The notes: generated by a model not told the origin, from the sequence alone. DNA of 64,000 bases from Micromonospora ferruginea (GCF_013694245.2 NZ_CP059322.2:2104001-2168000); one strand, 5' to 3'. Positions 29,609 to 58,202 are shown, counted from the first letter of the stretch. Program-made: numbers and translations.

Positions 29609-29675
29609 GCACCCCCCGTTCAAGCAGATCGGACGGCCTCGCTGCCCCACCGGACATGCGCAGGAAGGCATCGCC

Positions 29676-30781: not shown

Positions 30782-31908
30782 CACCGGGCCGCCATCTCGG
30801 GCGTACGGTCGGTGTCCGGGGCGAGCAGGCCGTCGTGCCGCAGCAGCGGCAGCACCCCCTCGCCGACCCAGTACGCCTCCTCGAGATGCGGCTGCCCGGA
30901 GAGGATCAGGTGGTCGACGCCGGCGGCGTGGTACTCGGCGATCCGTTCGGCGACCTCCTCGTGGCTGCCCACCAGCGCCGCGCCGGCACCCGGCCGGACC
31001 AGCGAGTAGCCGGCCCAGACGTTCGGGTGGACCTCCATCCGGGCGTTGCCGCCGGCGTGCAGCGCCGCGGCCCGCCGCTGCCCCTCCGACTCGGTACGGG
31101 AGAACCGCTTGCGCGCCGCGTCGATGCGCGCCTGGTCGACGCCGGCGAGCAGTCGTTCCGCCTCGGCCCAGGCCTCCCGCGCGGTGTCCCGGCTGATCAC
31201 GTGCAGCCGGCTGCCGGTGCGCAGCGTCCGCCCCGCCTCCGCCGCCCGGTCGCGTGCCTGTGCCAGCAGCTCACCGAGGAGGGCGGGGGTCTCGCCCCAG
31301 GCGAGGTAGACGTCGGCGTGCTGGGCCGCCGTCTGCTGGGCGGCGGGCGACGAGCCGCCGAGGAAGACCGTCGGCGCGGTCTCCGGCGGCCGGGCCAGCA
31401 GCGCGCCGCGTACCCGGTAGTGCTCGCCCTCGTGGTCGACCGGCCGGCCGGACCAGAGCTGGTTGAGGATGGCCAGGAACTCCCCGGCCCGGGCGTAGCG
31501 GGCGTCGTGGTCCAGCCAGTCGCCGTAGCGGTGCTGCTCGTCCGGGTCGCTGCCGGCGACGATGTTGAGCAGCACCCGGCCGCCGGTGACCCGGTCCAGG
31601 GTGGCGGCCATCTGCGCAACCAGCGTGGGTGAGACGAGTCCCGGCCGCAGCGCGATCATGAACTTGAGCCGTTCGGTCTGCGCGGCCAGCGCGGACGCCA
31701 CGATCCACGGGTCCTCGCAGAACAGGCCCGCCGGGGTGAGCACGCTGGCGAAGCCGAGCCGGTCGGCGGCCTGCGCCACCTGGGCCAGATAGCCGACGTC
31801 CGGCCGGCGGCGGGTGATGCGCGCCGGGCGGCTCCCGCCCCGCGACGGCTCGGCCAGGTCCCGGCCGTCGCCGTGCGAGGGCAGGAACCAGTGCAGTTCC
31901 AGTGACAT
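30781..31908 (-). CDS. SsuD-like FMNH2-dependent monooxygenase (LLM)
   Basis: This 375-residue luciferase-like monooxygenase closely follows alkanesulfonate monooxygenase: WFLPSHGDGRDL at the start, RLKFMIALRPGLVSPTLVAQMAATLDRVTGGR, and LNIVAGSDPDEQHRYGDWLDHDARYARAGEFL (broken here by normal sequence). In sulfur metabolism it releases sulfite from sulfonates. Placed in this operon with its reductase, a tailoring oxidation is also possible, and no sulfonate importer is present. ATG at 31908. Confidence 0.88.
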   Translation of the reverse strand: MSLELHWFLPSHGDGRDLAEPSRGGSRPARITRRRPDVGYLAQVAQAADRLGFASVLTPAGLFCEDPWIVASALAAQTERLKFMIALRPGLVSPTLVAQMAATLDRVTGGRVLLNIVAGSDPDEQHRYGDWLDHDARYARAGEFLAILNQLWSGRPVDHEGEHYRVRGALLARPPETAPTVFLGGSSPAAQQTAAQHADVYLAWGETPALLGELLAQARDRAAEAGRTLRTGSRLHVISRDTAREAWAEAERLLAGVDQARIDAARKRFSRTESEGQRRAAALHAGGNARMEVHPNVWAGYSLVRPGAGAALVGSHEEVAERIAEYHAAGVDHLILSGQPHLEEAYWVGEGVLPLLRHDGLLAPDTDRTPEMAAR

Positions 31909-31912: not shown

Positions 31913-34693
31913 TCAGTCCCCCCTCGGCGCGGTGTCGAAGCGCGCGGGCATCGCGGTGATCGCGTTCATGAAGTTGGTCCGCATCCGGCGGACCGGTCCG
32001 GTCAGCCGCAGTCCGGCCAGGTGTGGGCGGACCGCGGTGAGGAAGGCCGCCATCTCCAGCCGGGCCAGGTGGGCGCCGAGACAGAAGTGCGGGCCGATGC
32101 CGAACGCCAGATGGGGGTTCGGGTCGCGGCCCAGGTCCAGCCGGTCCGGGTCGGCGAACGCCTCCGGGTCCCGGTTGGCCGAGCTGTAGTAGACGACCAC
32201 CTTGTCACCGGCGGCGATCCGGGTGCCGTCGAGCACGGTGTCGCGGGTGGCGGTCCGCCGGAACTGCATGATCGGGGTGACCCAGCGCAACAGTTCCTCC
32301 ACCGCCGGCCCGGTCAGGTCCGGCTCGGCGATCAGGCGGTCCCGCTGCGCCGGGTGCGCCAGCAGCGCCTGCACGCCGCCGGAGATCAGGTGCCGGGTGG
32401 TCTCGTTGCCGGCGATGACCAGCAGCAGCCACAACTGGCAGAGCTGCGCGTCGGTCAGCCCCCGGCCGTCGGACTCGGCGTGCACCAGCAGGCTCATCAG
32501 GTCCTCGGTCGGGTGGGCCCGCCGCTGCGCGGCGAGCTGCCGCACGTAGGCGAAGGCGGCGGCGAACGTGTCCCGGTAGCGCGGCACGCTGCCGCCGCCG
32601 TGCTCCGGGTCGTCGAAGCCGACCAGGTTGTTGCTCCACTCGAACAGCAGCTTGCGGTCGGTGGCCGGCATGCCCAGCAGGTCGGTGAGGACCAGCAGCG
32701 GCAGTTCGGCGGCCAGGTCGGCCACCACGTCGATCGCACCGGCGGTGACCGCGCGGGAGACCACCTCCTCGGCGTGCCGGGTGACCAGCTCGCGCAGGCG
32801 TCCCACCGCGCGCGGGGTGAACGCGCCGGCCACCAGGCGGCGTACCCAGGTGTGCTCGGGAGCGTCCATGTTGATCAGAAGCTGCCGGTTGCGTTCCAGG
32901 TCGGCCGGGGTGCGCGGGTCGGCGAGGAACGCGCCGCCGGCGGCCGAGGAGAACAGCGCCGGGTCACGCGAGACCGCCGACACGGCGGCGTACCGGGTGA
33001 CCGCCCAGAAGCCCCGCCCCCGCGACGTCGTCTCGCCGTCGCGGTCGGTGCGGGTCAGCGCGACCTCGTCGACCCAGGCGACGGGGGCCTCCCGGCGGCG
33101 CCGGGCGAACTCGGCGTGCGGCACGCCGCTGAGGTACGTCCGCGGGTCGGCGAGCACGTCCGGCGGCGCCGGCGCGTGCCGGTGGCGGTCCCGCAGCGCC
33201 GCGCGGGGCACCTTGCCGGTGGGCTCGCGGGGGATCCGGTCGACCAGCTCGTAGGAGCGCGGCACCTTGAACCCGGCCAGCCCGGCCCGGCAGTGCGCGT
33301 CGAGGACCGCCTCGACGCCGTCGGCCGGCCACGCCGGGTCGAGTTGCACCAGTGCCCGGACCTGCTCGCCGAACTCGGCGTCCGGCACCCCGACGACCAC
33401 CCCGTCGGCCACCGCCGGGTGGGTCAGCAGCACCGCCTCCACCTCCGCCGGGTACACGTTGACGCCGCCGGAGACGATCAGTTCCGCCGAGCGTCCGGTC
33501 AGGTAGAGGTAGCCGTCGCCGTCGAGGCGGCCGAGGTCACCGAGGGTGAAGGTGTGCGGGGCGACGTGCGCGTTCTCGGTCTGCTCCGGGGCGTTGTGGT
33601 AGTGGAAGCCGCGACCCGGGGGACGGCGGACGGCGACCCGGCCCTCCCGCCCGGTCGGCACCGGGCGGCCCTCGTCGTCCACCACCAGGACCTCGGTCGG
33701 CGGTGCCGGCCGGCCCACCGTGCCGGGTCGGGCCAACCAGGTGTGCGAGTCGGCGAGGGTGACGATGCCGGCCTCGGTGGCGGCGTAGTACTCCACGAAC
33801 ACCGGGCCCCACCAGTCGATCATCGCGCGTTTGGTCTCCGGCGGGCACGGGCCGCCGCCGTGCCAGATGCGGGCGAGGCTGGCGCCGGAGAACCCGGCGC
33901 GGGTGGCGTCGTCGACCCGCAGCAGGCGGATGAACTGCGTCGGCACCAGATGGCTGATGGTGATCTTCTCGTCGTCGATCACGCGCAGCACCTCGGCCGG
34001 GTCGAACCGCCGGCGCATCACCAGGGCGCAGCCGCGCAGCAGCGGGAACTGGGCGAAGAACAACTGCGCCGAGTGGTACCACGGGCCCACCAGCAGGGCC
34101 CGGCCGTCGGTCGGGATGCCGAGCCCGGCGCCGAGCGCGGCCGTGGTGGCGGCCACCCGTTCGATCGGCGCGCCGACGCTGAGCAGCGGGTTGACCACGC
34201 CCTTGGGACGACCGCTGGTGCCCGAGGTGTAGAGCAGGACACCGCCGGAGACGGCCGGCGGCGGCGGGCCGGCGGGCAGGTCGGCGAACGGGGTGAAGCC
34301 CTCGCCGGAGTCCACCGTGACCAGCACCTCGGGGGCGTCCGGCACGCGGTCCACGGCGGCGCGCACGCCGGGCGCGTACGCGGCCTCGGTGAGCACCGCG
34401 CGGGCGCCGGAGTCGGCCAGGATGTGGGCGATCTCCGGCGCGGTCAGGTGCCAGTTCACCGGCACCGCCACCAGCCCGGAGTGCACGCAGGCCAGCAGCG
34501 CCTCGAAGGTCTCGCGCCGGTTGCCGAGCACGAACGCCACCCGGTCGCCGACGGCGAGGCCGGCGCCGTGCAGCGCCGCGATCCACCTGTCGACCGCCCG
34601 GTCCAGCTCCGCCCACGTGCGGGTGCCGTCCTCGTCGACGAGCGCGGTGTCGCCGCCGGCGTCGCGCACCATGTCCTGCAGCAGCTCGGCCAC
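31913..34693 (-). CDS. Acyl-CoA ligase-cytochrome P450 fusion
   Basis: One uninterrupted 926-residue reading frame. Residues 1-505 are a FadD-type acyl-CoA synthetase: P-loop YTSGTSGRPKG (155-165), YYAATEAG, GDLGRLDGDGYLYLTGR, and catalytic Lys494 in EPTGKVPRAAL. Residues about 510-926 are a complete P450: AGNETT (761-766) in helix I, the ExxR region near 800, and haem loop FGIGPHFCLG (864-873, Cys871). The P450 half resembles the CYP124/125/142 group, which oxidises chain-end methyls of lipids and sterols, and the ligase half resembles steroid/fatty-acyl FadD proteins. Oxidation of a chain end and its CoA activation may thus be channelled. GTG start with AGGAGG upstream. Confidence 0.88.
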   Translation of the reverse strand: MAELLQDMVRDAGGDTALVDEDGTRTWAELDRAVDRWIAALHGAGLAVGDRVAFVLGNRRETFEALLACVHSGLVAVPVNWHLTAPEIAHILADSGARAVLTEAAYAPGVRAAVDRVPDAPEVLVTVDSGEGFTPFADLPAGPPPPAVSGGVLLYTSGTSGRPKGVVNPLLSVGAPIERVAATTAALGAGLGIPTDGRALLVGPWYHSAQLFFAQFPLLRGCALVMRRRFDPAEVLRVIDDEKITISHLVPTQFIRLLRVDDATRAGFSGASLARIWHGGGPCPPETKRAMIDWWGPVFVEYYAATEAGIVTLADSHTWLARPGTVGRPAPPTEVLVVDDEGRPVPTGREGRVAVRRPPGRGFHYHNAPEQTENAHVAPHTFTLGDLGRLDGDGYLYLTGRSAELIVSGGVNVYPAEVEAVLLTHPAVADGVVVGVPDAEFGEQVRALVQLDPAWPADGVEAVLDAHCRAGLAGFKVPRSYELVDRIPREPTGKVPRAALRDRHRHAPAPPDVLADPRTYLSGVPHAEFARRRREAPVAWVDEVALTRTDRDGETTSRGRGFWAVTRYAAVSAVSRDPALFSSAAGGAFLADPRTPADLERNRQLLINMDAPEHTWVRRLVAGAFTPRAVGRLRELVTRHAEEVVSRAVTAGAIDVVADLAAELPLLVLTDLLGMPATDRKLLFEWSNNLVGFDDPEHGGGSVPRYRDTFAAAFAYVRQLAAQRRAHPTEDLMSLLVHAESDGRGLTDAQLCQLWLLLVIAGNETTRHLISGGVQALLAHPAQRDRLIAEPDLTGPAVEELLRWVTPIMQFRRTATRDTVLDGTRIAAGDKVVVYYSSANRDPEAFADPDRLDLGRDPNPHLAFGIGPHFCLGAHLARLEMAAFLTAVRPHLAGLRLTGPVRRMRTNFMNAITAMPARFDTAPRGD

Positions 34694-34718: not shown

Positions 34719-35456
34719 TCAGGCCGTCAGGTCGGGGCTGACGGCCAGGACGTGCTCGGCCACCGGCCGGAAGTTGAGCCGGGCGATCCCGGCGGTGCCG
34801 ATGTCCGCGCGCGCCGCCCGGGCCGCCTCGGCGGGGATCAGCACCAGCTCGCCGGCCGCCTGGGCGAGCAGTTGCACCTGGCAGCAGCGGTCCATGGCGA
34901 GGAACCACCAGGCCGCCTCGGCGACCGAGCCGCCGACCGTGAGCAGGCCGTGGTTGCGCAGCACGACCGCCTTGCCGGCGCCCAGCGTGGCGGCGATCCG
35001 GTCGCCCTCCGCCCCGTCGAGCACCACCCCGCCGTACTCGTCGTGGACCTCGTGGTCCTCGAAGAACGCGCAGGCGTCCTGGGTGATCGGCGCGAGCGGC
35101 CGGCCCAGCGCGGAGAACGCCCGGCCGTGCACCGAGTGGGTGTGCGCGGCGGCCACCACGTCCGGCCGGGCCTTGTGGATCGCGGAGTGGATGGCGTAGC
35201 CGGCCGGGTTGACCCGGCCCGTTCCCTCGACCACCTCGCCGGCGTGGTCCACCCGCAGCAGGTCGTCGTCGCGGACGTGGCGGAAGTGCCGGCCGAACGG
35301 GTTGATCCAGAAGGTGTCCGGGTCGATCGGGTCCCGGGCGGTCACGTGCCCGCCGGCGCCCTCGTCGAAGCCGGCCAGCGCGAAGGCGCGCGCGGTGAGC
35401 ACCAGGTGCCGCCGCCGGTACGCCCGCTCCTGCTCGGGGGTGCGTCGCTCAGCCAC
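34719..35456 (-). CDS. Class II aldolase/adducin family protein
   Basis: This 245-residue protein has GGHVTARDP near the N-terminus, zinc ligands in AAAHTHSVHGRAFSA, and VVLRNHGLLTVGGSVAEA. The family includes fuculose-phosphate aldolases and decarboxylases, but this form with WINPFGRHF resembles the poorly known catabolic members. Its GTG start at 35456 overlaps the upstream isomerase-like gene by 8 bases. A retro-aldol or decarboxylation role in the pathway is inference. Confidence 0.85.
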   Translation of the reverse strand: MAERRTPEQERAYRRRHLVLTARAFALAGFDEGAGGHVTARDPIDPDTFWINPFGRHFRHVRDDDLLRVDHAGEVVEGTGRVNPAGYAIHSAIHKARPDVVAAAHTHSVHGRAFSALGRPLAPITQDACAFFEDHEVHDEYGGVVLDGAEGDRIAATLGAGKAVVLRNHGLLTVGGSVAEAAWWFLAMDRCCQVQLLAQAAGELVLIPAEAARAARADIGTAGIARLNFRPVAEHVLAVSPDLTA

Positions 35457-36147
35457 AGCCGCCTCCGGTGTCGGTGTCGTACCCGCCGGCGCCGGCCGGC
35501 ACGGGCTCCGCCGGGCGCACCGGCGCGCCGGCACGGTCGGCGTACGCGGCGAGGAAGTCGTCGACCCGGTCGAAACCCCAGAACCGGTGCGGGCCGATCC
35601 GCAGGTAGGGGATGCCGAAGATGTCGTCGTCGTAGGCGCGCATCAGGCAGTCCACCCCGGCGGCGCGGATCGCGTCGTCGTCCACGGCGCCGAGCACCAC
35701 CTGCGGGTCGACGCCGGCCCGCTCGGCCACCCCGGCCAGGACCTCCGGCGTGCAGACGTCCTCGCCGCGGTGCCAGCGCGCCGCGATCACCTCCCGGTAG
35801 AACGCCTCCCCCGCACCCCGTTCCCGGGCCGCGAGGAAACCCAGGTGCGGCAGCTCCCACCACGGGTCGATGTCGATCGGCCAGCGCATCGGCACCTCCA
35901 GCCGCCGGGCCAGCCGCTTGGCGTCCTGCAACAGGTAGAGGTGCTTCGGCTTGCTCATCTGCACGTAGTGGAACGCGCCACCGGCCGCGGTCAGCGCCGA
36001 ACCGGTACGCGGATCCGGGTCCCAGTAGGGGATGAACTCCAGCGCCTCCTGCGGGCGGTGCAGCGCCCGGGTCAGCCGTTCCACCGCCAGCCAGCTGTAC
36101 GGGCTGCGGAACGAGAAGTACAACCGGGGCGGTCGGGGCGCCATCAT
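35449..36147 (-). CDS. DsbA/GST-kappa-type protein, 2-hydroxychromene-2-carboxylate isomerase-like
   Basis: This 232-residue protein starts with LYFSFRSPYSWLAVERL, where the Ser-Pro-Tyr of HCCA isomerases replaces the DsbA Cys pair. The later block DDIFGIPYLRIGPHRFWGFDRVDDFL is typical of this group, which isomerises double bonds with glutathione or another thiol. In a polyene cluster it may set cis/trans geometry (inference). The tail TDTGGGCG holds a Cys of unknown role. The start overlaps the thioesterase-like gene (ATGA). Confidence 0.85.
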   Translation of the reverse strand: MMAPRPPRLYFSFRSPYSWLAVERLTRALHRPQEALEFIPYWDPDPRTGSALTAAGGAFHYVQMSKPKHLYLLQDAKRLARRLEVPMRWPIDIDPWWELPHLGFLAARERGAGEAFYREVIAARWHRGEDVCTPEVLAGVAERAGVDPQVVLGAVDDDAIRAAGVDCLMRAYDDDIFGIPYLRIGPHRFWGFDRVDDFLAAYADRAGAPVRPAEPVPAGAGGYDTDTGGGCG

Positions 36148-37064
36148 CGCCCTCCGCCGGTGAGGGCGGCCACGGTCTGCCGGTCGAGGGTGGCCAGGCT
36201 GCCGGCGTCCGGGCCCCGGCTGGCCGCGTACCCGTGCAGGATGGTGGCGGTGGCCACCTGCACCAGCCGGCCGTCGCGCACCACGTGGCAGGTCATCCGG
36301 GCGTCGTAGGTGACGTCCTTGAGCACGTCGGTGACCGTGAAGGTGATCCACATCGGCTCCTCGACGCGCGCGTCGCCGCGCACCTCGACGCGGGCCCGGG
36401 AGACCACCGGGATCCAGCCCCGCTCGCGCAGCATCCGCCCGACCGACAGGCCCCGGTCGGCGAGGTAGCGGTCCACCACCTCCTCCAGCAGCCGGACGTA
36501 GCCGGCGTGCTGCATGCGCTCGGAGTACTGGCAGTAGAAGTAGGGCACCCGCCAGGCCCAGACGAAGCCGGCGCCGCCGGCCCGCAGGGTGGCGGCCGGG
36601 TCGGCCCCGGCGGCCGGGCCGGGCTCGCCGGCGCCCGGCTCCTCCAGCAGCCCGGCCAGGTCCGCCGGCAGCGGCGCGGCGGCCGGCGCGTCCGACGCGC
36701 GCACCAGCGCGACCCGGACCCGGGCCCGGCAGGCGGTGACCGGCTCGGCCGGGGCCGGGCCACCCGGGCGGGTGATCCGCACCGCGAACCGGCCGCCCGC
36801 GCCCGGCGTCGCGGTCACGCTCACCTCGTCGTCGACCTCCAGCACGGCCGGCAGCAGCAGCGAGCAGTCCCGCACCGACAGACCCACGCCGTGCTCCAGG
36901 TAGAGCCGGCCCGGGCCGTACCCGCGCTCCCGGAACCACTGCAGGACGCCCTGCTCGACCAGGTACGCGAAGTGCTTGAACCCGATCCAGGTGCGGATGT
37001 TGGCGCCCTCGAACCCGGGCCGGGCGGACAGGGTCACGGGCTCGTGCTGGACCGCCGTGGTCAC
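36144..37064 (-). CDS. Hotdog-fold thioesterase-like protein (double hotdog)
   Basis: This protein of about 306 residues has two hotdog halves: the first with IRTWIGFKHFAYLVEQGVLQWF and LYLEHGVGLSVRDCSLLLP, the second with VPYFYCQYSERMQHAGYVRLLEEVVDRYL, where the D/H-x-x-Y context matches acyl-ACP or 4-hydroxybenzoyl-CoA thioesterases. A Pro/Ala-rich linker (about 115-165) joins the halves. Likely it hydrolyses or binds an acyl thioester in the pathway. The GTG start overlaps the hydrolase stop (GTGA). Confidence 0.7.
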   Translation of the reverse strand: MTTAVQHEPVTLSARPGFEGANIRTWIGFKHFAYLVEQGVLQWFRERGYGPGRLYLEHGVGLSVRDCSLLLPAVLEVDDEVSVTATPGAGGRFAVRITRPGGPAPAEPVTACRARVRVALVRASDAPAAAPLPADLAGLLEEPGAGEPGPAAGADPAATLRAGGAGFVWAWRVPYFYCQYSERMQHAGYVRLLEEVVDRYLADRGLSVGRMLRERGWIPVVSRARVEVRGDARVEEPMWITFTVTDVLKDVTYDARMTCHVVRDGRLVQVATATILHGYAASRGPDAGSLATLDRQTVAALTGGGR

Positions 37065-37870
37065 GGCGTACCTCCTCGGATCGCGGGATCGGGGCAGACC
37101 TGCTCGACGAAGACCGTGATGTGCCGGGCCACCTCGGCCGCGCGGTCGAGGTGGCAGAAGTGGTGGAAGTCCGGCTCGACGACGATGTCGGCGTCGGGCA
37201 ACTGGGCGCGCAGGGCGCCCGCGCACGGCCCGTCCAGGCTGGGGTCCCGCCCACCGGTCAGCACCTTCGTCGGCACGGTCACCGCGTGCAGCGGCAGCCC
37301 GGCCGTGGCGGTGAAGTGGTCGAACAGCGCGGTGAACCCGACCGGGCCGATCCGGTCGACCATGATGTCGCGCATCGACGCCAGCGTGGCGGCGTCCAGT
37401 TCGGCCAGCCGGGAGCCGAGCCGGTTGCGCAGCCCCTCGTCGATGATCTGGACGAAGTTGGCCTGCGCCCGCTCGTGCACCGCCCAGGTGATCGGCAGGT
37501 CGGGCGGGCAGTAGAAGGGCGCGATCAGCATCGCGCCGCGCGGCGCCACCGCCGGCTCGGTGGCCAGCATCTCCAGCACCGCGTTCGCGCCGAGCGAGTG
37601 GCCGACCACGATGTCGGGCGGCGTGGTCATGGCGTCGACGGTCGCGGCGAGCCACCCGCCGGGGGTGCCCCGCCGCCGCCAGTGGTGGTCGGTGCCGGCC
37701 TTCCACGGCAGTTCGGCGGCGAACAGCCGCCAGGTGGCCGGCAGCCGCGCCACCAGGTGCCGCCAGCTCTGCCAGGTGTCGGACATGCCGTGCACCAGCA
37801 GCACGGTCGGCGCGCCGGAGTCCGGACCGGCGACCTGGTGCACCGGCGCGGCGGGCGCGGCGCGGGTCAT
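37061..37870 (-). CDS. Alpha/beta hydrolase
   Basis: This 269-residue protein has the oxyanion-side VLLVHGMSDTWQSWRHLV, the nucleophile elbow VVGHSLGANAVLEM, a late Asp in LTGGRDPSLDG and the catalytic His in FHHFCHLDRAAEVARHI. It may serve as a type II thioesterase, an esterase or a C-C bond hydrolase for the pathway. The ATG overlaps the stop of the KS-like gene (ATGA), so it is firmly in the operon. Confidence 0.85.
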   Translation of the reverse strand: MTRAAPAAPVHQVAGPDSGAPTVLLVHGMSDTWQSWRHLVARLPATWRLFAAELPWKAGTDHHWRRRGTPGGWLAATVDAMTTPPDIVVGHSLGANAVLEMLATEPAVAPRGAMLIAPFYCPPDLPITWAVHERAQANFVQIIDEGLRNRLGSRLAELDAATLASMRDIMVDRIGPVGFTALFDHFTATAGLPLHAVTVPTKVLTGGRDPSLDGPCAGALRAQLPDADIVVEPDFHHFCHLDRAAEVARHITVFVEQVCPDPAIRGGTP

Positions 37871-38904
37871 CGGGGCACCGCCCGCACGGTCAGCTCGCGT
37901 ACGCCGTCGACCGGGTCGCCGCAGCGCACCGCGACGGCCGGCGTGCCGCCGGTCAGCCGGACGGCGAGTGCGGTGTGCACGACCCCGGCGGCGCCGTAGT
38001 GGTCACCGCCCAGCCGGGCCTCGTCGACGATCGGACCGTCGCCGGACGCGCCGTCGCGGACCGCCCCGAGCAGCGCCAACGGCCGGCCGGCGGGGTCGCG
38101 CGGCGCAGGTGGCCGCTCCGCCGCGTCGGTCGGGCCGCGCGGCGCGGACCGCCGTTCCGGCGTCTCGGCCGGGCCCAGCAGCAGGCAGGCGGCGCCGGCC
38201 CGCAGCGGCCGTCCGGGCGTGGCCCCGCGCCGGGCCGCGTGCAGGGCGCGGGCCTGCGGGTCGTCCGGTTCGGTGCCGACCACCACCACCCGGTCGGCGC
38301 GGCCGGTGCGCAGCAGCACGCCGGCCAGCCAGATCGCGTCCAGTCCGGCGGTGGCGCCGGAGCAGACGGTGAGGTTGGGGCCGCCGAAGCGGAACCAGAT
38401 CGCGATCGCCCCGGCGATGACGTTGCTGGAGGCGTTCGGGGCCTCCAGCGGGCCGACCTCGCGGGGCCCGCCGTCGCGCAGCCGCCCGGCGATGTCGCCC
38501 ACCGTGGCGACGTTGCCCAGGTTGGAGCTGACCACCACGGCGGTACGCGGGTCCGCCGGGCCGGTGCGGCGGGGCGCCTTCGGCGGCAGGCCCAGCGCCC
38601 GGTGCACCGCGCACAGCGCGAGCCGGGTGGCCGGCTCCTTGGCCAGCAGGCCCTTGCGGCCGAGCAGCTCGGCGGCCCGCTCCGGTGGCCAGCCCGGCCC
38701 GTCGGCGGCGGCGTCGTCCGGCGCGGTGACCCCGCCAGGAGCGGGGCGCGCGCCCCGCGTGCCGAGATCCGGTGCGGGCAGGCCGGTGCCGACCAGCAGG
38801 GTCGGCACGTCGAGCCCCGGCACGTTCAGCGCGGCGCTCAGCACCGCGGCCACCGGCCGGAAACCGGTCGTCGCCGGGGACGGCACGGCGTGGACGGTCG
38901 TCAC
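37867..38904 (-). CDS. Degenerate ketosynthase-like protein (second CLF-like subunit)
   Basis: This 345-residue thiolase-fold protein has ELLGRKGLLAKEPATRLALC near the N-terminus, a motif that also occurs in the chain-length factor of this cluster, and TVCSGATAGLDAIW around Cys181, the place of the KS nucleophile. The HGTGT His is absent; a GDHYGAAG stretch replaces the GHTxGAAG motif. It is therefore unlikely to condense alone. It is encoded next to a full KS (38901-40013), so it may form a heterodimer with it. GTG start overlapping by four bases. Confidence 0.7.
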   Translation of the reverse strand: MTTVHAVPSPATTGFRPVAAVLSAALNVPGLDVPTLLVGTGLPAPDLGTRGARPAPGGVTAPDDAAADGPGWPPERAAELLGRKGLLAKEPATRLALCAVHRALGLPPKAPRRTGPADPRTAVVVSSNLGNVATVGDIAGRLRDGGPREVGPLEAPNASSNVIAGAIAIWFRFGGPNLTVCSGATAGLDAIWLAGVLLRTGRADRVVVVGTEPDDPQARALHAARRGATPGRPLRAGAACLLLGPAETPERRSAPRGPTDAAERPPAPRDPAGRPLALLGAVRDGASGDGPIVDEARLGGDHYGAAGVVHTALAVRLTGGTPAVAVRCGDPVDGVRELTVRAVPR

Positions 38905-40013
38905 GACGCCTCCAGGAGGGTGACCGCGTTGAGGCCGCCGAAGCCGAACGCGTCGACCTGGGCGACACGCGGTCGCGCCACCACCGCCCGGTCCCGCACG
39001 AGTCGCAGCCCCGCCGCCTCGGGTGTGGGCCGGCGCAGCCCGATCACCGGGGGAACCCGGCCGGTGCGCAGCGCCTCGATCGCGACGGCGACGCTGAGCA
39101 GCGCCGACCCGCCGGAGGTGTGGCCCACCGCGCCCTTGAGCGCGGTCACCAGCGGTCCGGGCGCGCAGCCGGCGAAGACCTCGGCGAGCACCCCGGCCTC
39201 GGTCTCGTCGTTGAGCGCGGTGCCGGTGCCGTGCGCCAGCACCAGGTCGACCTGCTCGGGCCGGCGGTCGGCCCGGCGGTGGGCGTCGCATACCGCCCGG
39301 AGGATGCCGTCGCGGTCGGGCGCCGTCTCATGCCCGGCGTCGCAGGACAGCCCGGTGCCCAGCAGCCGGGCCAGGCCCGTGCCCGGCCGGTCCGCCTCGA
39401 CGACCAGCACCACCGCGCCGTCGCCGAGCAGCACCCCGGCGCGGTCGGCGTCGAACGGCCGCACCCGATCGGTCGGGCTGGCCGCCACCCGCCCGATCAT
39501 GGCCAGCATCGACGCGGTGCTGGCGTCGGTGCCGCCGACCAGCACCGCGTCCGCCTCGCCGGTCTCCACCAGGTCCTGGGCGAGCGCGAGGGCGTGCCCG
39601 CCGGCGCTGCACGCGTTGGCCAGCGTGACCACCCGGCCGACGCCCGGCGCCGCGTCGGTGACGGCCGGGCCGAAGTGCAGGCGCTCGGCGGGAAAGTCCA
39701 CCGTGCCGCCCAGCGCGGCGCGTTCCACCTCGGCCGACTCGCGCAGCCCGGTGCCGACCAGGCTGACCACCCGGCGGCGGCGAGGATCGACACCGGCGGC
39801 GGCCAGCGCCTCGGTGACGCAGTCGGCGAGCCAGCGGCCGGGCCCGAACGGCCGGTCGTCGGCGATCGGGTAGCCGTGCTCCACCCCGACGCGGCGCGGG
39901 TCCACCCGTCGCAGCGGCGCGACGCCGCAGTCGCCGCGCAGCAGCGCGTCCCAGGTGGCCGGCCCGTCGCCGAAGCAGGTGCGGACCGCGCTAGCGGTGA
40001 TCGTCGCCGCCAC
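38901..40013 (-). CDS. Beta-ketoacyl synthase (second KS)
   Basis: This 370-residue KS has a complete active site: Cys135 in LANACSAGGHAL, His261 in HGTGT, Lys293 in TALKGAVGHTS and His298 in the same block, ending DAFGFGGLNAVTLLEA. The N-terminus is shorter than FabF. It carries out or assists decarboxylative Claisen condensation on ACP. Its GTG start lies 23 bases inside the chain-length-factor gene. The role beside the main KS/CLF pair may be priming or a separate elongation phase, as with the extra KSs in aryl polyene clusters. Confidence 0.85.
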   Translation of the reverse strand: MAATITASAVRTCFGDGPATWDALLRGDCGVAPLRRVDPRRVGVEHGYPIADDRPFGPGRWLADCVTEALAAAGVDPRRRRVVSLVGTGLRESAEVERAALGGTVDFPAERLHFGPAVTDAAPGVGRVVTLANACSAGGHALALAQDLVETGEADAVLVGGTDASTASMLAMIGRVAASPTDRVRPFDADRAGVLLGDGAVVLVVEADRPGTGLARLLGTGLSCDAGHETAPDRDGILRAVCDAHRRADRRPEQVDLVLAHGTGTALNDETEAGVLAEVFAGCAPGPLVTALKGAVGHTSGGSALLSVAVAIEALRTGRVPPVIGLRRPTPEAAGLRLVRDRAVVARPRVAQVDAFGFGGLNAVTLLEAS

Positions 40014-41043
40014 CGGCCCACCCCCTCACCACGGCCGCGGCCACCCCGCCGTCGCGGGAGCGGCCGGTGACCAGCGCCGGACGGCCGGCGGACGCCGGCT
40101 CCTCGGCGTACCGGGCCAACAGCGCGCCGAACGCCAGCGCGCCGGCCGCGGCCTGGCAGTCGCCCAGTGCCGGGCGCACCGGCAGCCGTTCCGCCGTGGC
40201 GGGCACGGCGTCCCGCAGGCCGTCGCCGTCGTCGCCGGCCAGCGCCCAGACGTCGGCCGCCCGGACGCCGGCCGTGGCCAGTGCCCGGCGGGCGCAGCCG
40301 GCCAGCCCGGCGTCGGCGTCGTCGGGCGCGAAACCGGTGGCCACCGAGAGCACCTCGGCGCGGGCGCCGGTCGCCTCGGCGCCGCGCCGACGCAGCAGGT
40401 AGACGGCCGACGCCTCGCCGGCCGGTCCGGCGTCGGTCAGCCGGGCCGCCCAGGCGGTGTTCGGCGTGTACTCCTCCACGCCGCCGACCAGCAGGGCGTC
40501 GGCGTAGCCGCGCCGGATGGCGTTGAGCGCGTAGCGCAGCGCGTACAGGAAGGCCAGCGGGCCGCCGGCCACGGTGGCGTTGACGCCGCGCAGGCCGTGG
40601 CGGATGGCCGCCTGACCGGCGGCGCAGTTCATCACCGTGTTGGGGAACAGCACCGGGTTGACCAGGTACGGCTTCTCCTGCACCAGCGTCTCGCGGGAGA
40701 AGTCCATGGTCGACTTCAGGCTGCCGGTGGTGGTGCCCAGCACCACCCCGATGCGGTGCCGGTTGTCGTCGTCGGGGGTCAGTTCCCCGTCGGCGAGCGC
40801 CCGCCCGCAGGCCACCATCGCCAACGCGGTGGCCCGGTCCAGGAAGCTGGTGCCCTTGCGCCCGAGCAGGCCCCGTACGTCGAAGTCGGCGATCGCCGGC
40901 GCCTCGACCTCCGGCAGCGGCTCGGCGAACCGGTCCCGCACGTCGGCGCGCACCGCCGCGCCGGCGCGGATCGCGGTGAGCACGTCGGCGACGGAGTCCC
41001 CGGCGGCGGAGACGACACCGCAGCCGGTCACCACCCCGCTCAC
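39991..41043 (-). CDS. Chain-length factor (KS-beta)
   Basis: This 350-residue KS-like protein has the active Cys replaced: the block VNATVAGGPLAFLYALRYA has Gly at the nucleophile position (around 161). It keeps the overall fold, with FDVRGLLGRKGTSFLDRAT and VVLGTTTGSLKSTMDF, features of CLFs from highly reducing type II systems and of aryl polyene ApeC-like proteins. It should pair with the KS at 41040-42245 and set chain length. The GTG start overlaps the KS stop (GTGA). Confidence 0.85.
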   Translation of the reverse strand: MSGVVTGCGVVSAAGDSVADVLTAIRAGAAVRADVRDRFAEPLPEVEAPAIADFDVRGLLGRKGTSFLDRATALAMVACGRALADGELTPDDDNRHRIGVVLGTTTGSLKSTMDFSRETLVQEKPYLVNPVLFPNTVMNCAAGQAAIRHGLRGVNATVAGGPLAFLYALRYALNAIRRGYADALLVGGVEEYTPNTAWAARLTDAGPAGEASAVYLLRRRGAEATGARAEVLSVATGFAPDDADAGLAGCARRALATAGVRAADVWALAGDDGDGLRDAVPATAERLPVRPALGDCQAAAGALAFGALLARYAEEPASAGRPALVTGRSRDGGVAAAVVRGWAGGGDDHR

Positions 41044-42245
41044 CGGATCGCCCCGAAGATCGTGATGGCGTTGTTGCCGCCGAAGGCGAACCCGTTGTTC
41101 TGCGCCACCCGGACGGTGGCCGGCCGGGCCACGTTGGGCACCGGGTCGATCCACGGCAGCTCCGGGTCCGGGTTCGCCCAGTTGATCGTCGGGGGCAGGA
41201 ACCCGTGCCGGATGGCGAGGGTGGTGGCGATCGCGCCGAAGCCGCTGGCCGCGCCCATGGTGTGCCCGAGCATCGACTTGATCGAGCTGACCGGCGGCAC
41301 CCGGTCGCCGAAGACCGCCCGGATCGCCCGGGCCTCGCACAGGTCGTTCGCCGGGGTGCCGGTGCCGTGGGTGCTGACGTAGTCGACGTCCACCGGCTTG
41401 ATCCCGGCGTTGTCCAGGGCCAGCCGCATGCAGGCGGCGATGCTGTCCTCGTTCGGCGCGACCATGTGGTGGGCGTCGCAGTTCAGGCCGTGGCCGAGCA
41501 CCTCGGCGTAGATCCGCGCGCCCCGGGCGACGGCGTGGTCCAGCGTCTCCAGCACCAGCGCCGCGCCACCCTCGCCGGTGAGGATGCCGGAGCGGTCCCG
41601 GTCGAACGGGCGGCACTGCCGCTCGGTCAGCGCGCCCAGGCGGAAGAAGCCGGCGTGCGCCCACCGGCACACCGAGTCCGCCCCGCCGGCCACCATCACG
41701 TCCGCCTCGCCGGTGTGCAGCAGGTCGTAGGCGTAGCCGATGGCGTAGTTGCTGGCCGAGCAGGCGGTGGTGAGCGTGACCGACTCACCGGCCAGGCCCA
41801 GCTCGGCGCTGACCGCGTAGGCCAGCCGCTCGGCGGGCGCCTGGCGCAGCGAGTCCACCGACATGCTCGGGTAGCCGCCGGCGACGAGGTCCGCGACGAG
41901 TTGCTCCACCACCGTCGACTCGCCGCTGGTGGTGCCGATGACCGCGCCCGCGCGTCCCGGGTCGGCCAGCGGCAGCGGCAGCCCCGCGTCGGTCGCGGCC
42001 AGCCGGGCGGCGGCCGCGGCGAGCAGCGCCGACCGGCCCCACTGCTCGACCCGGACCCGTCGCAGCACCTCCGCCGGCCGGAACGCGGGCACCTCGCCGG
42101 CGTACCGGTGCGGGAAGCCGGACGCGTCGAAGCTGGTGATGGGCGCGGCGGCGGAGCGCCCCCGACGCAGCCCGTCGGTGAACTCGTCGACGCCGATGCC
42201 GATGCCCGACACCGGGCCGAGCCCGGTGACGACTACCCGGTGCAC
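41040..42245 (-). CDS. Beta-ketoacyl-ACP synthase, KS-alpha (FabF-like)
   Basis: This 401-residue protein is a full KS: Cys162 in TTACSASNYAIG, His293 in STHGTGTPAND, Lys323 and His328 in SSIKSMLGHTMGAASG, and FAFGGNNAITIF at the end. It forms the catalytic half of the type II PKS with the chain-length factor encoded next. The GTG start lies 3 bases after the ACP stop. With one KR and two DH-like genes in the same operon, a repeatedly reduced and dehydrated (polyene-type) chain is expected. Confidence 0.92.
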   Translation of the reverse strand: MHRVVVTGLGPVSGIGIGVDEFTDGLRRGRSAAAPITSFDASGFPHRYAGEVPAFRPAEVLRRVRVEQWGRSALLAAAAARLAATDAGLPLPLADPGRAGAVIGTTSGESTVVEQLVADLVAGGYPSMSVDSLRQAPAERLAYAVSAELGLAGESVTLTTACSASNYAIGYAYDLLHTGEADVMVAGGADSVCRWAHAGFFRLGALTERQCRPFDRDRSGILTGEGGAALVLETLDHAVARGARIYAEVLGHGLNCDAHHMVAPNEDSIAACMRLALDNAGIKPVDVDYVSTHGTGTPANDLCEARAIRAVFGDRVPPVSSIKSMLGHTMGAASGFGAIATTLAIRHGFLPPTINWANPDPELPWIDPVPNVARPATVRVAQNNGFAFGGNNAITIFGAIR

Positions 42246-42248
42246 GCC

Positions 42249-42503
42249 TCAGTCCTGCCAGCCGGCGTACCGCGCCACCACCTCGTGCACGGCCTTGAGG
42301 CTGCGCATCTCGTTCAGCTCGGCCTGCGGGATCTCCACCTTGTACCTCTTCTCGATCCGGGCCAGGATCTCGATCGCCCGCAGCGAGTCCGCCTCGTACT
42401 CCTCGACGAAGTCGGCCGTGTCGGCGACCTCCTCGGGCTCCATCTCGAGCACCTCGGCGACGATCTCCCGCAGTTGCTCCAGGTGCTGGTCGCGTTCACT
42501 CAT
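42249..42503 (-). CDS. Acyl carrier protein 1
   Basis: This 84-residue acidic helical protein carries the phosphopantetheine site at Ser40 in EEYEADSLRAIEIL. The helix after it, RIEKRYKVEIPQAEL, is typical of FAS/PKS carrier proteins. It lies between the KS and dehydratase genes and should carry the growing polyketide. ATG start with AGAGGAA-type sequence upstream. No phosphopantetheinyl transferase is in the window. Confidence 0.93.
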   Translation of the reverse strand: MSERDQHLEQLREIVAEVLEMEPEEVADTADFVEEYEADSLRAIEILARIEKRYKVEIPQAELNEMRSLKAVHEVVARYAGWQD

Positions 42504-42518
42504 CGCGGTTCCTCTCTC

Positions 42519-42992
42519 TCAGTCTCGCGGCTCGGCGACGGCGTCGACCGGTCGGACGACGGCCATCATGGAGTCGAACTCGGCCACCCGCCGCTCCCCG
42601 ACCCAACTGGATCCGGAGGCGAACGCGGCGCCGTCGACGACCTGGTCCAGCCGGACCCGGTGGTGGACCACGTCACCCGGGTGCACCGGGTGCAGCAGCA
42701 CCACGTCGCGGGCCGCGGTGAACATCGGCAGCCCCGCCGTGCCCGACCGGCGGGACAGCAGCCAGAGCACCGCCGCCCCCTGGCCGAACGACTCGATCAG
42801 CAGCGACGCCGGGTAGGCGTACCGGTCGGCGGGCTGGTCCTCGGCGATGCCCCGGTAGCAGGGCTCGCAGCCGCTCACCGCCTTGACGCCGGTGAGGCTC
42901 TCGCCGGGCTCGACGTCCTCGACCCGGTCGAGCAGCAGCATCGGGTAGCGGTGCGGCAGCAGGGCGCGCAGCGCGGCGTGGTCCAGTCTCAT
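42519..42992 (-). CDS. FabZ-like dehydratase subunit lacking the catalytic His
   Basis: This 157-residue hotdog protein has the FabZ opening LLPHRYPMLLLDRVEDVEPG and keeps the Glu (Glu67 in SLLIESFGQ). Where FabZ has the catalytic GHFP His, this protein reads RGIAEDQPADRY. It is probably the inactive, structural half of a heterodimer with the neighbouring dehydratase, as described for ApeP-ApeI type pairs. The ATG overlaps the neighbour stop (ATGA), which favours 1:1 synthesis. Confidence 0.82.
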   Translation of the reverse strand: MRLDHAALRALLPHRYPMLLLDRVEDVEPGESLTGVKAVSGCEPCYRGIAEDQPADRYAYPASLLIESFGQGAAVLWLLSRRSGTAGLPMFTAARDVVLLHPVHPGDVVHHRVRLDQVVDGAAFASGSSWVGERRVAEFDSMMAVVRPVDAVAEPRD

Positions 42993-43462
42993 CGGCCGTC
43001 GTCCCCGTCGGTCGGCCAGCGGAACACGGCGCGCACGGTCGCGGTCCGCACCCCGTCGCCGCGTACGCACCGGGCGGTGACCTCGAAGGACTGGTCCTGC
43101 GCGACCGGGCCGACGGACGCCTCCACGGTCAGCGTGTCGCCGGCCAGCAGCGGGGCGAGGAACCGGGCCGAGTGCAGCCGGTGCAGCTCCGGCGGGCGGC
43201 CGGCGCAGTGGCCGACCGCCGCGCTGACCGCCTGCCGCAGGGTCTCCAGGGTGAACACCCCCGGATAGACGGTCAGCTCGGGGAAGTGCCCGGTCAGGTA
43301 GAGGTCGTCCGGGTCGACGGTCGTCTCGGCGCGCAGGGTGATCCCGCCGCGCGGGCCGGCGGCGACCTGGACCGACGCGACGGCCGGCAGCGGCGCGGCC
43401 GCCTCGGCGTACGTCTGGGCGGGGGTGCGGTCCGGGGCGAAGGCGGGTACGACGGCGGTCAC
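42989..43462 (-). CDS. FabZ/FabA-like dehydratase, catalytic subunit
   Basis: This 157-residue hotdog protein has the catalytic pair His59 in LYLTGHFPELTVYPGVF and Glu73 in TLETLRQAV. It removes water from beta-hydroxyacyl-ACP to give enoyl-ACP. The partner encoded next lacks the His, so the working enzyme is likely a heterodimer. The GTG start overlaps the FabG stop (GTGA). An enoyl reductase is absent from the window, consistent with a conjugated polyene product. Confidence 0.85.
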   Translation of the reverse strand: MTAVVPAFAPDRTPAQTYAEAAAPLPAVASVQVAAGPRGGITLRAETTVDPDDLYLTGHFPELTVYPGVFTLETLRQAVSAAVGHCAGRPPELHRLHSARFLAPLLAGDTLTVEASVGPVAQDQSFEVTARCVRGDGVRTATVRAVFRWPTDGDDGR

Positions 43463-44211
43463 AGCACGATCCCCCCGTCCACCCGCACGACCTGGCCGGT
43501 GACGTACGCGGCCCGGTCCGACAGCAGGAACTCGACCAGCTCGGCGACGTCCTCCGGGGTGCCGAAGCGGCGCAGCGGGATCTGCGTCAACGCCTGCGCG
43601 CGCTGCTTCTCCGTCAACGCCGCAGTCATGTCGGTCTCCACGAAGCCCGGCGCGACCACATTGACCCGGATGCCGTACCCGGCGACCTCCTTGGCCAGCG
43701 AGCGGCTGAGCCCGATGATGCCGGCCTTGCTGGCCGCGTAGTTGGTCTGCCCGGCGTTGCCGGTGACCCCGGCGACCGAGGAGAGGTTGACCACGGCCCC
43801 GCGGCGGCGCTTGAGGAACCGGAACGCGACCGCGCGGCAGGTGTTCCAGGTGCCGGTCAGGTTGGTGTCGACGACGTCGTGCCAGTCCTCCGGGCCCATC
43901 AGCACCATCGGCCGGTCCCGGGTGATGCCGGCGTTGTTGACCAGCGCGGTCAGCGGGCCGAGGCGTTTCTCGGCGGTGGCGACGAAGTCGTCGACCGCCG
44001 CCCGGTCGGTGACGTCGCAGGGGGCGAACCAGCTCGGCACCCCGTACGCCTCGACCTCCGCGCGGGTCTTCTCGGCGGCCTCGCCGGCGGTGCTGAAGCA
44101 CCCCGCGACCGCGTAGCCCTCGGCCGCCAGCCGCAGCGCGACCGCCCGCCCGATGCCCCGTGACGCGCCGGTCACCAGCGCGCAGCGCGGCGTCTCACCC
44201 GCCGTGTCCAT
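43459..44211 (-). CDS. 3-ketoacyl-ACP reductase (FabG-like)
   Basis: This 250-residue SDR has ALVTGASRGIGRAVAL, NNAGITRDRPMVLM, catalytic Ser in NLSSVAGVTGNAGQ and Tyr-Lys in TNYAASKAGIIG, and the C-terminus YVTGQVVRVDGGI. It reduces beta-ketoacyl-ACP with NADPH. The ATG 44211 has GGAGG four bases upstream; ATG 44226, overlapping the previous stop, is an alternative that adds five residues. It is the only ketoreductase in the window. Confidence 0.9.
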   Translation of the reverse strand: MDTAGETPRCALVTGASRGIGRAVALRLAAEGYAVAGCFSTAGEAAEKTRAEVEAYGVPSWFAPCDVTDRAAVDDFVATAEKRLGPLTALVNNAGITRDRPMVLMGPEDWHDVVDTNLTGTWNTCRAVAFRFLKRRRGAVVNLSSVAGVTGNAGQTNYAASKAGIIGLSRSLAKEVAGYGIRVNVVAPGFVETDMTAALTEKQRAQALTQIPLRRFGTPEDVAELVEFLLSDRAAYVTGQVVRVDGGIVL

Positions 44212-44222: not shown

Positions 44223-45470
44223 TCATCCGATCGCCCGTTCCGCCCGCAGCCGCGCCCGGGTGGCCGCGTCCACCTTCAGCTCGTCGAGGATCTGTTCGGT
44301 GTCGGCGCCCGGTTCGGGGGCGCCGGCGCGCACCGCCGTCGGCGTGCGGGAGAACTTCACCGCCGGCCCGGTCAGCGGCGCGGTGCTGCCGTTGGCCAGC
44401 ACGGTCTCCTGCACCATCGCCCGGGCCCGCACCTGCGGGTCGGCGGCCGCGTCGGCGAAGGTGCGGACCCGCTCGGCGGTGATCCCGGCGTCGTCGAGCA
44501 CGGCGACCACGTCGGCGCAGGTCCGTTCGGCGCACCAGCCGGCGAGAACGGCGTTGACCTCGGCGCGGTTGTCCCGGCGCTCCTCGTTGGTGGCGTATCC
44601 GGGCGCCCGGGCCAGCTCGGGCCGGCCGACCACCTCGGCGAGGCGCCGCCAGGAGCGGTCCAGCGCGACGGCGACGTAGACGTGCCCGTCGGCGCAGCGG
44701 AAACAGCCGGCCGGCACCACGAAGTCGGCCTGGTCGCCCCAGCGGCGCAGCGGCACCCCGGTCGCGCCGAGGGTCAGGTAGCCGTTGCTGGAGAACAGCA
44801 ACGCGTCCAGCATGCTCACGTCGACGTGCTGGCCCTCGCCGGTGCGGTCGCGGTGGCGCAGCGCGGCGAGCGCGCCGATCACCGCGTGCAGGCCGGCGAT
44901 GTCGTCGGCGAGGAAGGTGGGCGCCTTGAGCGGGGCGCCGTCGGGTTCGCCGTTGAGCGACATCCACCCGGCGGCGGCCTGGGTGGTCGGGTCGTAGCCG
45001 GGCCGGGCGGCGTCCGGGCCGTACTGGCCGTAGCCGGAGATGGAGACCAGCACCACGTCGGGGCGAACCTCGCGGCAGGCCCGGTAGCCGACGCCCCAGG
45101 CGTCCAGGGTGCCGGGCTTGTAGTTCTCCACCACGACGTCGGCGGTGGCGACGAGCCGCAGGAACACCTCGGCCGCGCCGGGGCGCCGCAGGTCCAGCCC
45201 GATGCTGCGCTTGTTGCGGTGCACGCTCTGCCGGAACCAGGACAGCCCGGTGCCCGGGATGTGCGGCGGCATGAGCCCTTCCCGGTTGCCGGGCATCTCC
45301 ACCCGCAGCACGTCGGCGCCGAGGTCGGCCAGCACGCAACTGGCGACCGGGCCGGACCAGACCTTCGTCACGTCGAGCACGCGGACGCCGTGCAGCGGAC
45401 CGGGCAGGTCGGCGCGCGCGTCGGCGTAGAACGCGGCGGCGTCGGTGGGAGCGCTCGTGTCGGTGTCCAT
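44223..45470 (-). CDS. CaiB/BaiF-type (class III) CoA-transferase
   Basis: This 415-residue protein has LHGVRVLDVTKVWSGPVASCVLADLGADVLRVE at the N-terminus (normal family spacing), RNKRSIGLDLRRPGAAEVF, VVVENYKPGTLDAWGVGY, and the catalytic Asp region in GYDPTTQAAAGWM. Such enzymes move CoA between carboxylic acids. Here it may load a chain or aryl acid as CoA thioester, or recycle CoA after the thiolase step. ATG 45470 has GGGAG eight bases before; a GTG at 45479 overlaps the thiolase stop. Confidence 0.9.
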   Translation of the reverse strand: MDTDTSAPTDAAAFYADARADLPGPLHGVRVLDVTKVWSGPVASCVLADLGADVLRVEMPGNREGLMPPHIPGTGLSWFRQSVHRNKRSIGLDLRRPGAAEVFLRLVATADVVVENYKPGTLDAWGVGYRACREVRPDVVLVSISGYGQYGPDAARPGYDPTTQAAAGWMSLNGEPDGAPLKAPTFLADDIAGLHAVIGALAALRHRDRTGEGQHVDVSMLDALLFSSNGYLTLGATGVPLRRWGDQADFVVPAGCFRCADGHVYVAVALDRSWRRLAEVVGRPELARAPGYATNEERRDNRAEVNAVLAGWCAERTCADVVAVLDDAGITAERVRTFADAAADPQVRARAMVQETVLANGSTAPLTGPAVKFSRTPTAVRAGAPEPGADTEQILDELKVDAATRARLRAERAIG

Positions 45471-45475
45471 GCCGT

Positions 45476-46615
45476 TCACTCCCGTACCAGCAGCGAGGCG
45501 GTGCCCAGCGAGCCGCCGCAGCACATGGTGACCAGCGCGCTGTGCCGGTCGCGGCGCTCCAGCTCGTGCAGCGCGGTGACCAGCAGCCGGGTGCCGCTGC
45601 TGCCCAGCGGGTGCCCGAGCGAGATGGCGCCGCCGTTGACGTTGACCCGGTCCAGGTCGGCGTCGTGGTGCGCGGCCCAGGACAGCACGACCGACGCGAA
45701 CGCCTCGTTGACCTCGACCAGGTCGACGTCGGCGAGGCTCATCCCGGCGCGTTTGAGCAGCTTTCGGGTCGCCACGACGGGCCCGTCGAGCAGGTAGTAG
45801 GGGTCCGCGCCGGTGACCACCTGGTGGGCCAGCCGGGCCCGGGGCCGCAGCCCGAGGGCGGTGGCGCGCTCCCGTGACATCCACAGGATCGCCGACGCGC
45901 CGTCGGAGATCTGCGAGATGGTGGCGGCGGTGTGCCGGCCGTCGGGGACCACCGGGCGCAGCGCGGCCAGGCCCTCGGCGGTGCTCTCGCGGATGCCCTC
46001 GTCGGTGGTGACGAGCGTGCCGTCGGGCAGCGGCACCGCGCTGGTCTCCCGGTCGAAGCGGCCCTCGTCGCGGGCGCGGGCGGCGAGGCGCTGCGAGCGC
46101 AGGCCGTAGGCGTCCAGGTCCGCGCGGGTCAGCCCCTGCCGGGTGGCGATGCGTTCGGCACCGCCGAACTGCGCGCGCGGCGGATCGTCGTACGGGTAGT
46201 CGGGCGTCTTGTAGTGGCCGGGCCCCTGGTAGAGGTTGGTCCCGACCGGGACCCGGCTCATCGACTCCACGCCGCAGGCGATGCCGACGTCGATCGCGCC
46301 GGCCGTGACCAGCGCGGCGATCAGGTGGTTGGCCTGCTGCGCGGAGCCGCAGGAGGTGTCCACCGTGCTCGCCGCGACCTCGAAGTCGAGGCCGCTGTTG
46401 AGCCACGCGTTGCGGGTGACGTTGAGGCTCTGCTCGCCGACCTGGGTGACGCAGCCGCCGATGATCTGGTCGACGTCGCCGGGTTCCACCCCGGCGCGGC
46501 GCAGCACCTCGACCTGCACGTGCCGCAGCAGTTCCACGGCCTTCAGGCCGGACAGCGCCCCGTCGCGCCGGCCGATCGGGGTGCGGACCGCCTCGACGAT
46601 CACCGCCTCCGGCAT
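45476..46615 (-). CDS. Thiolase (acetyl-CoA acyltransferase, FadA5/FadA-like)
   Basis: This 379-residue protein has nucleophile Cys89 in STVDTSCGSAQQANH, His in VNGGAISLGHPLGSSGTR, NEAFASVVL, and the second Cys in VTMCCGGSLGTASL. All catalytic residues are present. It cleaves 3-ketoacyl-CoA to a shortened acyl-CoA plus acetyl-CoA, or runs in reverse. The sequence resembles thiolases from sterol side-chain breakdown. Its position in a PKS operon suggests chain trimming or supply of a starter unit. Confidence 0.9.
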   Translation of the reverse strand: MPEAVIVEAVRTPIGRRDGALSGLKAVELLRHVQVEVLRRAGVEPGDVDQIIGGCVTQVGEQSLNVTRNAWLNSGLDFEVAASTVDTSCGSAQQANHLIAALVTAGAIDVGIACGVESMSRVPVGTNLYQGPGHYKTPDYPYDDPPRAQFGGAERIATRQGLTRADLDAYGLRSQRLAARARDEGRFDRETSAVPLPDGTLVTTDEGIRESTAEGLAALRPVVPDGRHTAATISQISDGASAILWMSRERATALGLRPRARLAHQVVTGADPYYLLDGPVVATRKLLKRAGMSLADVDLVEVNEAFASVVLSWAAHHDADLDRVNVNGGAISLGHPLGSSGTRLLVTALHELERRDRHSALVTMCCGGSLGTASLLVRE

Positions 46616-52743: not shown

Positions 52744-52938
52744 TCAGTCGTCGACGACGGAGAGGGCCTGCTTCGGGCAGCGGCGGGCGGCCTCGCGCAC
52801 CCGCCGGCCCAGCGATCCCTCCAGCGGCTGCTCGGTGACGTGCAGCAGGTCGTCCTCACCGACGTCGAACACCTCCGGCGCCTGCCCCACGCACACGGCG
52901 TTGCTCTCGCAGCGGGAGTAGTCCACGACCAGTCGCAT
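52744..52938 (-). CDS. 3Fe-4S ferredoxin
   Basis: This 64-residue protein has three cluster Cys: Cys10 and Cys16 in SRCESNAVCVG, and Cys54 in ARRCPKQAL. The middle Cys of 4Fe-4S proteins is missing, as in P450-type 3Fe-4S ferredoxins. It likely passes electrons to one or more P450s of the cluster. ATG start at 52938, three bases after the O-methyltransferase stop, so it shares that operon. Confidence 0.93.
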   Translation of the reverse strand: MRLVVDYSRCESNAVCVGQAPEVFDVGEDDLLHVTEQPLEGSLGRRVREAARRCPKQALSVVDD

Positions 52939-58178: not shown

Positions 58179-58202
58179 TGCCGCCTCCTGTCCGGACATC
58201 CC

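Follow-up and report, generated by a model that had tools for sequence, protein, structure and literature searches.

The window analysed here was a 64,000-nucleotide stretch (G000:C1:2104001-2168000) within the 6.7-Mb genome of Micromonospora ferruginea. A run of 17 genes was found on its minus strand, from the thiolase gene g51 (46615) to the FMN reductase gene g35 (30230), and because these genes mostly overlap by 4 bases, the run looks like a single operon. It is flanked by g33 and g34 (26737-30221), which encode a large LuxR-type regulator and a small helix-turn-helix protein and are retained in the group-A relatives. The start of g39 was corrected to 36147 from the called position 36123. 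The window gave no Rfam or tRNA hits. The features were as follows:

45476..46615, minus strand: g51, thiolase with the catalytic residues present (PRK07850, 583 bits, over cut-off; motifs)
44223..45479, minus strand: g50, family III CoA-transferase (PF02515, 383 bits)
43459..44211, minus strand: g49, FabG-type ketoreductase (TIGR01830, 316.5 bits, over cut-off)
42989..43462, minus strand: g48, DH subunit with catalytic His59 (GHFP) and Glu73 (Pfam, FabA-like)
42519..42992, minus strand: g47, DH subunit without catalytic His (Ile49), Glu67 present (FabZ-like)
42249..42503, minus strand: g46, acyl carrier protein (ACP), serine 40 of the DSL motif (Pfam PF00550; motif)
41040..42245, minus strand: g45, KS1, 401 aa, C162/H293/H328 (match to 6kxd_A; clade KS1)
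39991..41043, minus strand: g44, CLF1, 350 aa, Pro at the KS-Cys position (match to 6kxd_B; clade CLF1)
38901..40013, minus strand: g43, KS2, 370 aa, C135/H261/H298 (Pfam KS N- and C-domains; own clade)
37867..38904, minus strand: g42, CLF2, 345 aa, A184 at the KS-Cys position (predicted model, fold match, alignments)
37061..37870, minus strand: g41, alpha/beta hydrolase with GHSLG, possible thioesterase (Pfam; motif)
36144..37064, minus strand: g40, double-hotdog protein with an acyl-ACP thioesterase fold (model; structure match)
35449..36147, minus strand: g39, DsbA/HCCA-isomerase/GST-kappa-like protein, proposed cis-trans isomerase of cinnamoyl PKSs (Pfam DSBA; PDB 3fz5, 2imd)
34719..35402, minus strand: g38, NovR/CloR-like enzyme of the class II aldolase fold (best PDB match 9ryg, NovR, 224 bits)
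31913..34693, minus strand: g37, CoA ligase-P450 fusion, 926 aa (Pfam; fusion survey)
30230..31908, minus strand: g36, luciferase-like monooxygenase, and g35, FMN reductase, at the operon end (Pfam)
52744..52938, minus strand: g56, ferredoxin, retained in many relatives (Pfam)
55123..56700, plus strand: g59, DhbE/PchD-like aryl-acid AMP ligase (TIGR02275, 575 bits, below the cut-off of 723.6)
57873..59894, minus strand: g61, carrier protein, and g62, fatty-acyl-AMP ligase (FAAL), an alternative loader (Pfam; PRK09192 of NCBIfam, 334 bits)

The interval delimited in the first-pass annotation (37867-44211) covers no more than the central part of the operon, and the isomerase-type, thioesterase-type and CoA-chemistry genes lie outside it. 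Its inventory of one ketoreductase, two DH-like proteins, one ACP and no enoyl reductase was borne out by a Pfam scan of g35-g64. The two KS/KS-like pairs that it described, g45/g44 and g43/g42, were likewise recovered as four minus-strand genes of the KS family. In the alignment, the Cys-His-His residues were retained in KS1 (g45) and KS2 (g43). The best PDB match of g45 was Iga11 (6kxd_A, 404 bits, E 5.6e-120) and that of g44 was Iga12 (6kxd_B, 156 bits). The g42 protein matched the Pfam KS N-domain with an E-value of 3e-12, and its predicted model (pLDDT 86) had a KS-family fold; Iga12 was its best solved fold (6kxd_B, Z 26.3, rmsd 3.3, 275 residues), with FabF chains less than 1 Z behind, so this match is unspecific. 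Given these E-values and the Z-score of g42, the KS-family homology of g45 and g42 is far beyond chance.

Both partners of the intact KSs have lost catalytic residues. The residue of g44 aligned with the catalytic Cys was Pro (VAGGP) rather than the Gly proposed earlier, which is part of the preceding VAGG motif. It had also been claimed that g42 keeps its catalytic Cys as Cys181 and lacks the catalytic His; the absence of the His was confirmed by alignment, but in HMM alignments the catalytic Cys of solved FabF chains was matched by Ala184, located 3 residues past Cys181. Cys181 itself was conserved in 36 of 39 members of the g42 clade. The LLGRKG-type motif reported for both non-catalytic partners proved to be characteristic: LGx[KR]G was present in 47/53 CLF1-type and 32/44 CLF2-type proteins and in none of 47 KS2-type proteins, and on these alignments it reads as a CLF mark. 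Both degenerate proteins, g44 and g42, are chain-length factors.

A tree of 207 KS-family proteins was calculated by a quick method, with several weak forks and without fatty-acid or thiolase outgroups. It resolved four deep clades, KS1, KS2, CLF1 and CLF2, each of which showed the same split between a cinnamoyl-type branch and the branch that includes the window. KS2 and CLF2 formed clades of their own beside KS1 and CLF1, the KS2 clade having 46 rows and a support of 100. CLF2 adjoined KS2 in 45 of 49 cases by gene calls and in 3 more by tblastn. Pair 2 was found without pair 1 within 10 kb at three loci (L067, L073 and L077), and a few loci had pair 1 and the isomerase-type gene but no pair 2. 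The two KS/CLF pairs are therefore modular, and the three loci with pair 2 only imply that serial use of the pairs is not universal.

The two DH subunits also differed in their residues. The catalytic His was absent from 40/40 homologues of g47, which retained the Glu, and present in 29/29 homologues of g48. It is predicted that g48 and g47 form a heterodimer with one active site, and the occurrence of g47-type and g48-type DHs as one double-length protein in five relatives fits this expectation.

The g39 protein was assigned to the HCCA-isomerase/GST-kappa family and co-occurred strictly with KS2; the proposed isomerase identity draws on descriptions of YsfG, GlaV and Sky27, not on their sequences. 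A nearly invariant C-terminal GGCG tail was observed in an alignment (A6) of the g39 proteins, and its Cys might provide the thiol that glutathione provides elsewhere. The model of g40 (pLDDT 93) matched 4gak with a Z-score of 19.0, no NCBIfam match was obtained for this protein, and within the genus it was a constant companion of KS2/CLF2. The CoA ligase-P450 fusion (925-965 aa) was seen in the window and in some relatives (L054, L057 and L060), when most relatives had two neighbouring genes instead. The genes g37, g38, g50 and g51 travelled jointly with the core or were all absent, the exceptions being L058 and loci cut by the ends of contigs or fetched regions. A literature search on the NovR-like step returned nothing relevant.

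The layout was compared with that of cinnamoyl-lipid PKSs, in which elongation depends on an isomerase and the KS/CLF pairs number two or three (PMC9381841). For this class, the combination of multiple KS/CLF pairs and an isomerase marker has been noted (PMC6510318). In the youssoufene system, YsfB-C starts the chain and YsfD-E acts next; the same paper likens GlaV of the globisporamic acid system to a glutathione-dependent cis-trans isomerase (PMC9381841). For epoxinnamide, EpcS/P was proposed as the starter pair and EpcR/Q was proposed for the last C2 unit (PMC9321520). The window resembles these systems (ysf, gla, epc, kcn, sky) in having two KS/CLF pairs, an ACP, a ketoreductase, two DHs and an isomerase-type gene, with hydrolase and hotdog genes in between and no enoyl reductase; this class membership was judged by gene content, gene order and published descriptions, not by YsfG, Kcn or Epc sequences. 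The cinnamoyl-type loci in our set had the order ACP-KS-KS-CLF-hydrolase-hotdog-CLF-ACP-DH-DH-KR-isomerase, which agrees with the Epc and Gla descriptions (PMC9321520, PMC9381841). Thus, the two-pair layout is a known hallmark of the cinnamoyl-lipid class (youssoufene, globisporamic acid, epoxinnamide). The branch of the window differs by the additional CoA-ligase/P450, NovR-like enzyme, CoA-transferase and thiolase, and its partner NRPS is of the thiazoline and not the depsipeptide type.

That NRPS begins 6 kb past the right end of the window; the present analysis had at first taken the window alone to lack a neighbouring NRPS, which the right flank showed to be wrong. The right flank encodes a carbamoyltransferase, two xanthine-dehydrogenase-type subunits, a type II TE, a thiazolinyl imide reductase (347.5 bits, over the cut-off of 188.8) and two NRPS proteins. 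A large molybdopterin subunit (g55, 50452-52695) is located inside the window, and the small and FAD subunits are past its right end (L150:1917-3238). NRPS protein 1 has the domains ArCP-like/Cy/A/PCP/Cy/A/PCP, and protein 2 has docking/Cy/A-MT/PCP and a short TE-like end; DxxxxDxxS motifs of the Cy type and an N-terminal GLDSIGLM carrier were present. With predicted Cy domains, a thiazolinyl imide reductase and an N-terminal aryl carrier domain, the flank has the features of a pyochelin-like thiazoline NRPS. It shares with the pyochelin/yersiniabactin NRPSs the ArCP-like start, the Cy-type motifs, the reductase, the type II TE and a methyltransferase embedded in the last protein's A domain, and differs from them by three O-methyltransferases, P450s, the carbamoyltransferase and a cap apparently made by a type II PKS, not a salicylate synthase. 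The DhbE-like g59 retains the AHN..GC motif in relatives, although some relatives lack the gene, and g62 was also found beside the NRPS in four relatives; both are candidate loaders. Literature searches returned no known thiazoline product of this kind, and no published description of a type II PKS/thiazoline NRPS pairing was found in open-access papers.

One and the same set of 35 genomes, out of 151 from Micromonospora, carried KS2, g40 and g39; kinship among the genomes inflates any p-value. The thiazolinyl reductase was located 10-33 kb from KS2 in 25/25 genomes having both on one contig. The right-flank genes listed above, not only those of the NRPS, were common to six group-A relatives, and the examined group-B relatives had homologous NRPS genes, 49-61% identical. 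In one of the 35 genomes (G107), the KS2/CLF2 locus was ~14 kb from NRPS condensation domains. The block between g51 and a GMC oxidoreductase gene was absent from G066 (L025/L026), leaving g51 abutting the oxidoreductase gene and the locus ~37 kb shorter; this is a natural clean junction without the NRPS and tailoring half, at which the PKS half stands alone. Outside the genus, KS1, CLF1, KS2, CLF2 and g40 are gathered in one locus of Cupriavidus campinensis (L081), and a KS2 relative occurs in Collimonas humicola (L065), as does a g40 homologue.

On balance, we consider it likely that an isomerase-dependent two-stage type II PKS supplies an acid, probably aromatic, which caps the thiazoline NRPS peptide. 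For the genes, clades, residues and co-occurrences (among themselves and with the NRPS) observed here, a reaction order, an aromatisation and a product were proposed by analogy. KS1-CLF1 (g45-g44), the ketoreductase g49 and the one-site DH g48/g47 would build a short all-trans polyene on the ACP g46, one double bond of which would be converted to cis by the isomerase g39. KS2-CLF2 (g43-g42) would take the isomerised chain for a last extension, and ring closure by 6pi-electrocyclisation, with oxidation yielding an aryl group, would probably follow. The hydrolase g41 and the double-hotdog protein g40 may act on or release the acyl-ACP; the ligase-P450 g37, the NovR-like g38, the CoA-transferase g50 and the thiolase g51 may re-activate, trim or oxidise the acid; and g59, or the FAAL g62, would load it onto the N-terminal carrier domain of the NRPS. 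The first-pass annotation did not mention the isomerase-type g39, the single active site predicted for the two DHs, the module of CoA ligase, NovR-like enzyme and thiolase, or the thiazoline NRPS next to the window; in view of these, the free conjugated polyene that it expected is less likely as an end product than such a cap. Counting against the cap are the PKS half of G066 that lacks an NRPS half, three cassette members (G074, G115 and G117) without the thiazolinyl reductase, and g59, which is under its family cut-off and missing in some relatives.

A more detailed version, which we regard as less likely than not, is a chorismate-independent aryl cap widespread in Micromonospora: the polyene of the two-pair PKS would be isomerised and ring-closed to an aryl chain, the thiolase and the NovR-like enzyme would trim or oxidise this chain to give a benzoate-type acid, and the DhbE-like ligase would pass it to the NRPS. 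If the hybrid reading is true, the salicylate or type I PKS that starts pyochelin/yersiniabactin-type peptides is exchanged here for a type II PKS of the fatty-acid-like kind. The cluster occurs in about one sixth of the sampled Micromonospora genomes, no product having been described in the papers searched, and its natural variants (one pair; PKS without NRPS; DH or ligase-P450 fusions) offer a direct way to test what the second pair and g40 do.

It was also considered that the peptide is capped by a polyene acid that stays linear, like that of ishigamide, without ring formation. KS1/CLF1 are nearest to Iga11/Iga12 among solved structures, the FAAL g62 beside the NRPS could load a linear acid, and no cyclase for ring closure was identified among the sequences compared, a set without Kcn17-19 and YsfX. 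Going by published descriptions, however, the ishigamide system has one KS-CLF pair and no isomerase, and it is the benzene-forming class that is characterised by an isomerase-type gene and a second pair (PMC6510318, PMC9381841). The DhbE-like g59 and the NovR-like g38 also suggest an aromatic substrate, and the linear acid was judged unlikely. Less likely again, the PKS operon and the thiazoline NRPS could be two independent adjacent clusters, in line with G066 and with other occurrences of the PKS core without a nearby reductase. Against such independence, the reductase was within 33 kb of KS2 in every same-contig genome, the association in the genus having a Fisher p of 6e-16 among related, not independent genomes, and an acyl cap is required by the ArCP-like domain at the N-terminus. 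A salicylate-type synthase was looked for in the scanned window proteins and not seen. Of the three chorismate-binding ORFs in the genome (653033, 948837 and 2093816), the nearest (2093816) lies 78 kb from the reductase, 10 kb beyond the left end of the window.

Aryl polyene and flexirubin systems also have a CLF, a DH pair and a ketoreductase. Two KSs occur in them as well (PMC8358021). Nevertheless, it is hardly credible that the locus encodes a pigment system of this type, and the kinship with aryl polyene PKSs suggested earlier was not upheld: the aryl-polyene KSs of 6qsp and 7f27 scored far under Iga11 and FabF. For g43 the scores were 82 bits (6qsp) and 74 bits (7f27) against 155 bits for Iga11, and for g45 they were 204 bits (7f27) against 404 bits, so a grouping with aryl-polyene KSs was rejected on sequence scores, not on a joint tree. 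The acyltransferase and outer-membrane genes of that pathway were not seen in the scanned window proteins.

Finally, KS2-CLF2 could act like AmcF-AmcG of cispentacin, catalysing one extension and a cyclisation to a five-membered ring, a reading to which we give little weight. Pair 2 is likewise a KS with a degraded KS-like partner, AmcF was the top NCBIfam match of g43, and the top two AmcG matches among 246 genomes were CLF2s. Both scores were, however, far under the cut-offs (179 of 325 bits for AmcF and 37 of 80 bits for AmcG), and assignment as a cispentacin-type KS-CYF was rejected. KS1 scored higher still on AmcF (209 bits), FabF outscored AmcG on g42, CLF2 is twice as long as AmcG, and no ketoglutarate ligase or aminotransferase, the companion genes, was recognised. 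As a separate observation, CLF2 proteins (L135 and L136) were the best matches of the AmcG model, hinting that AmcG descended from a CLF2-like protein.
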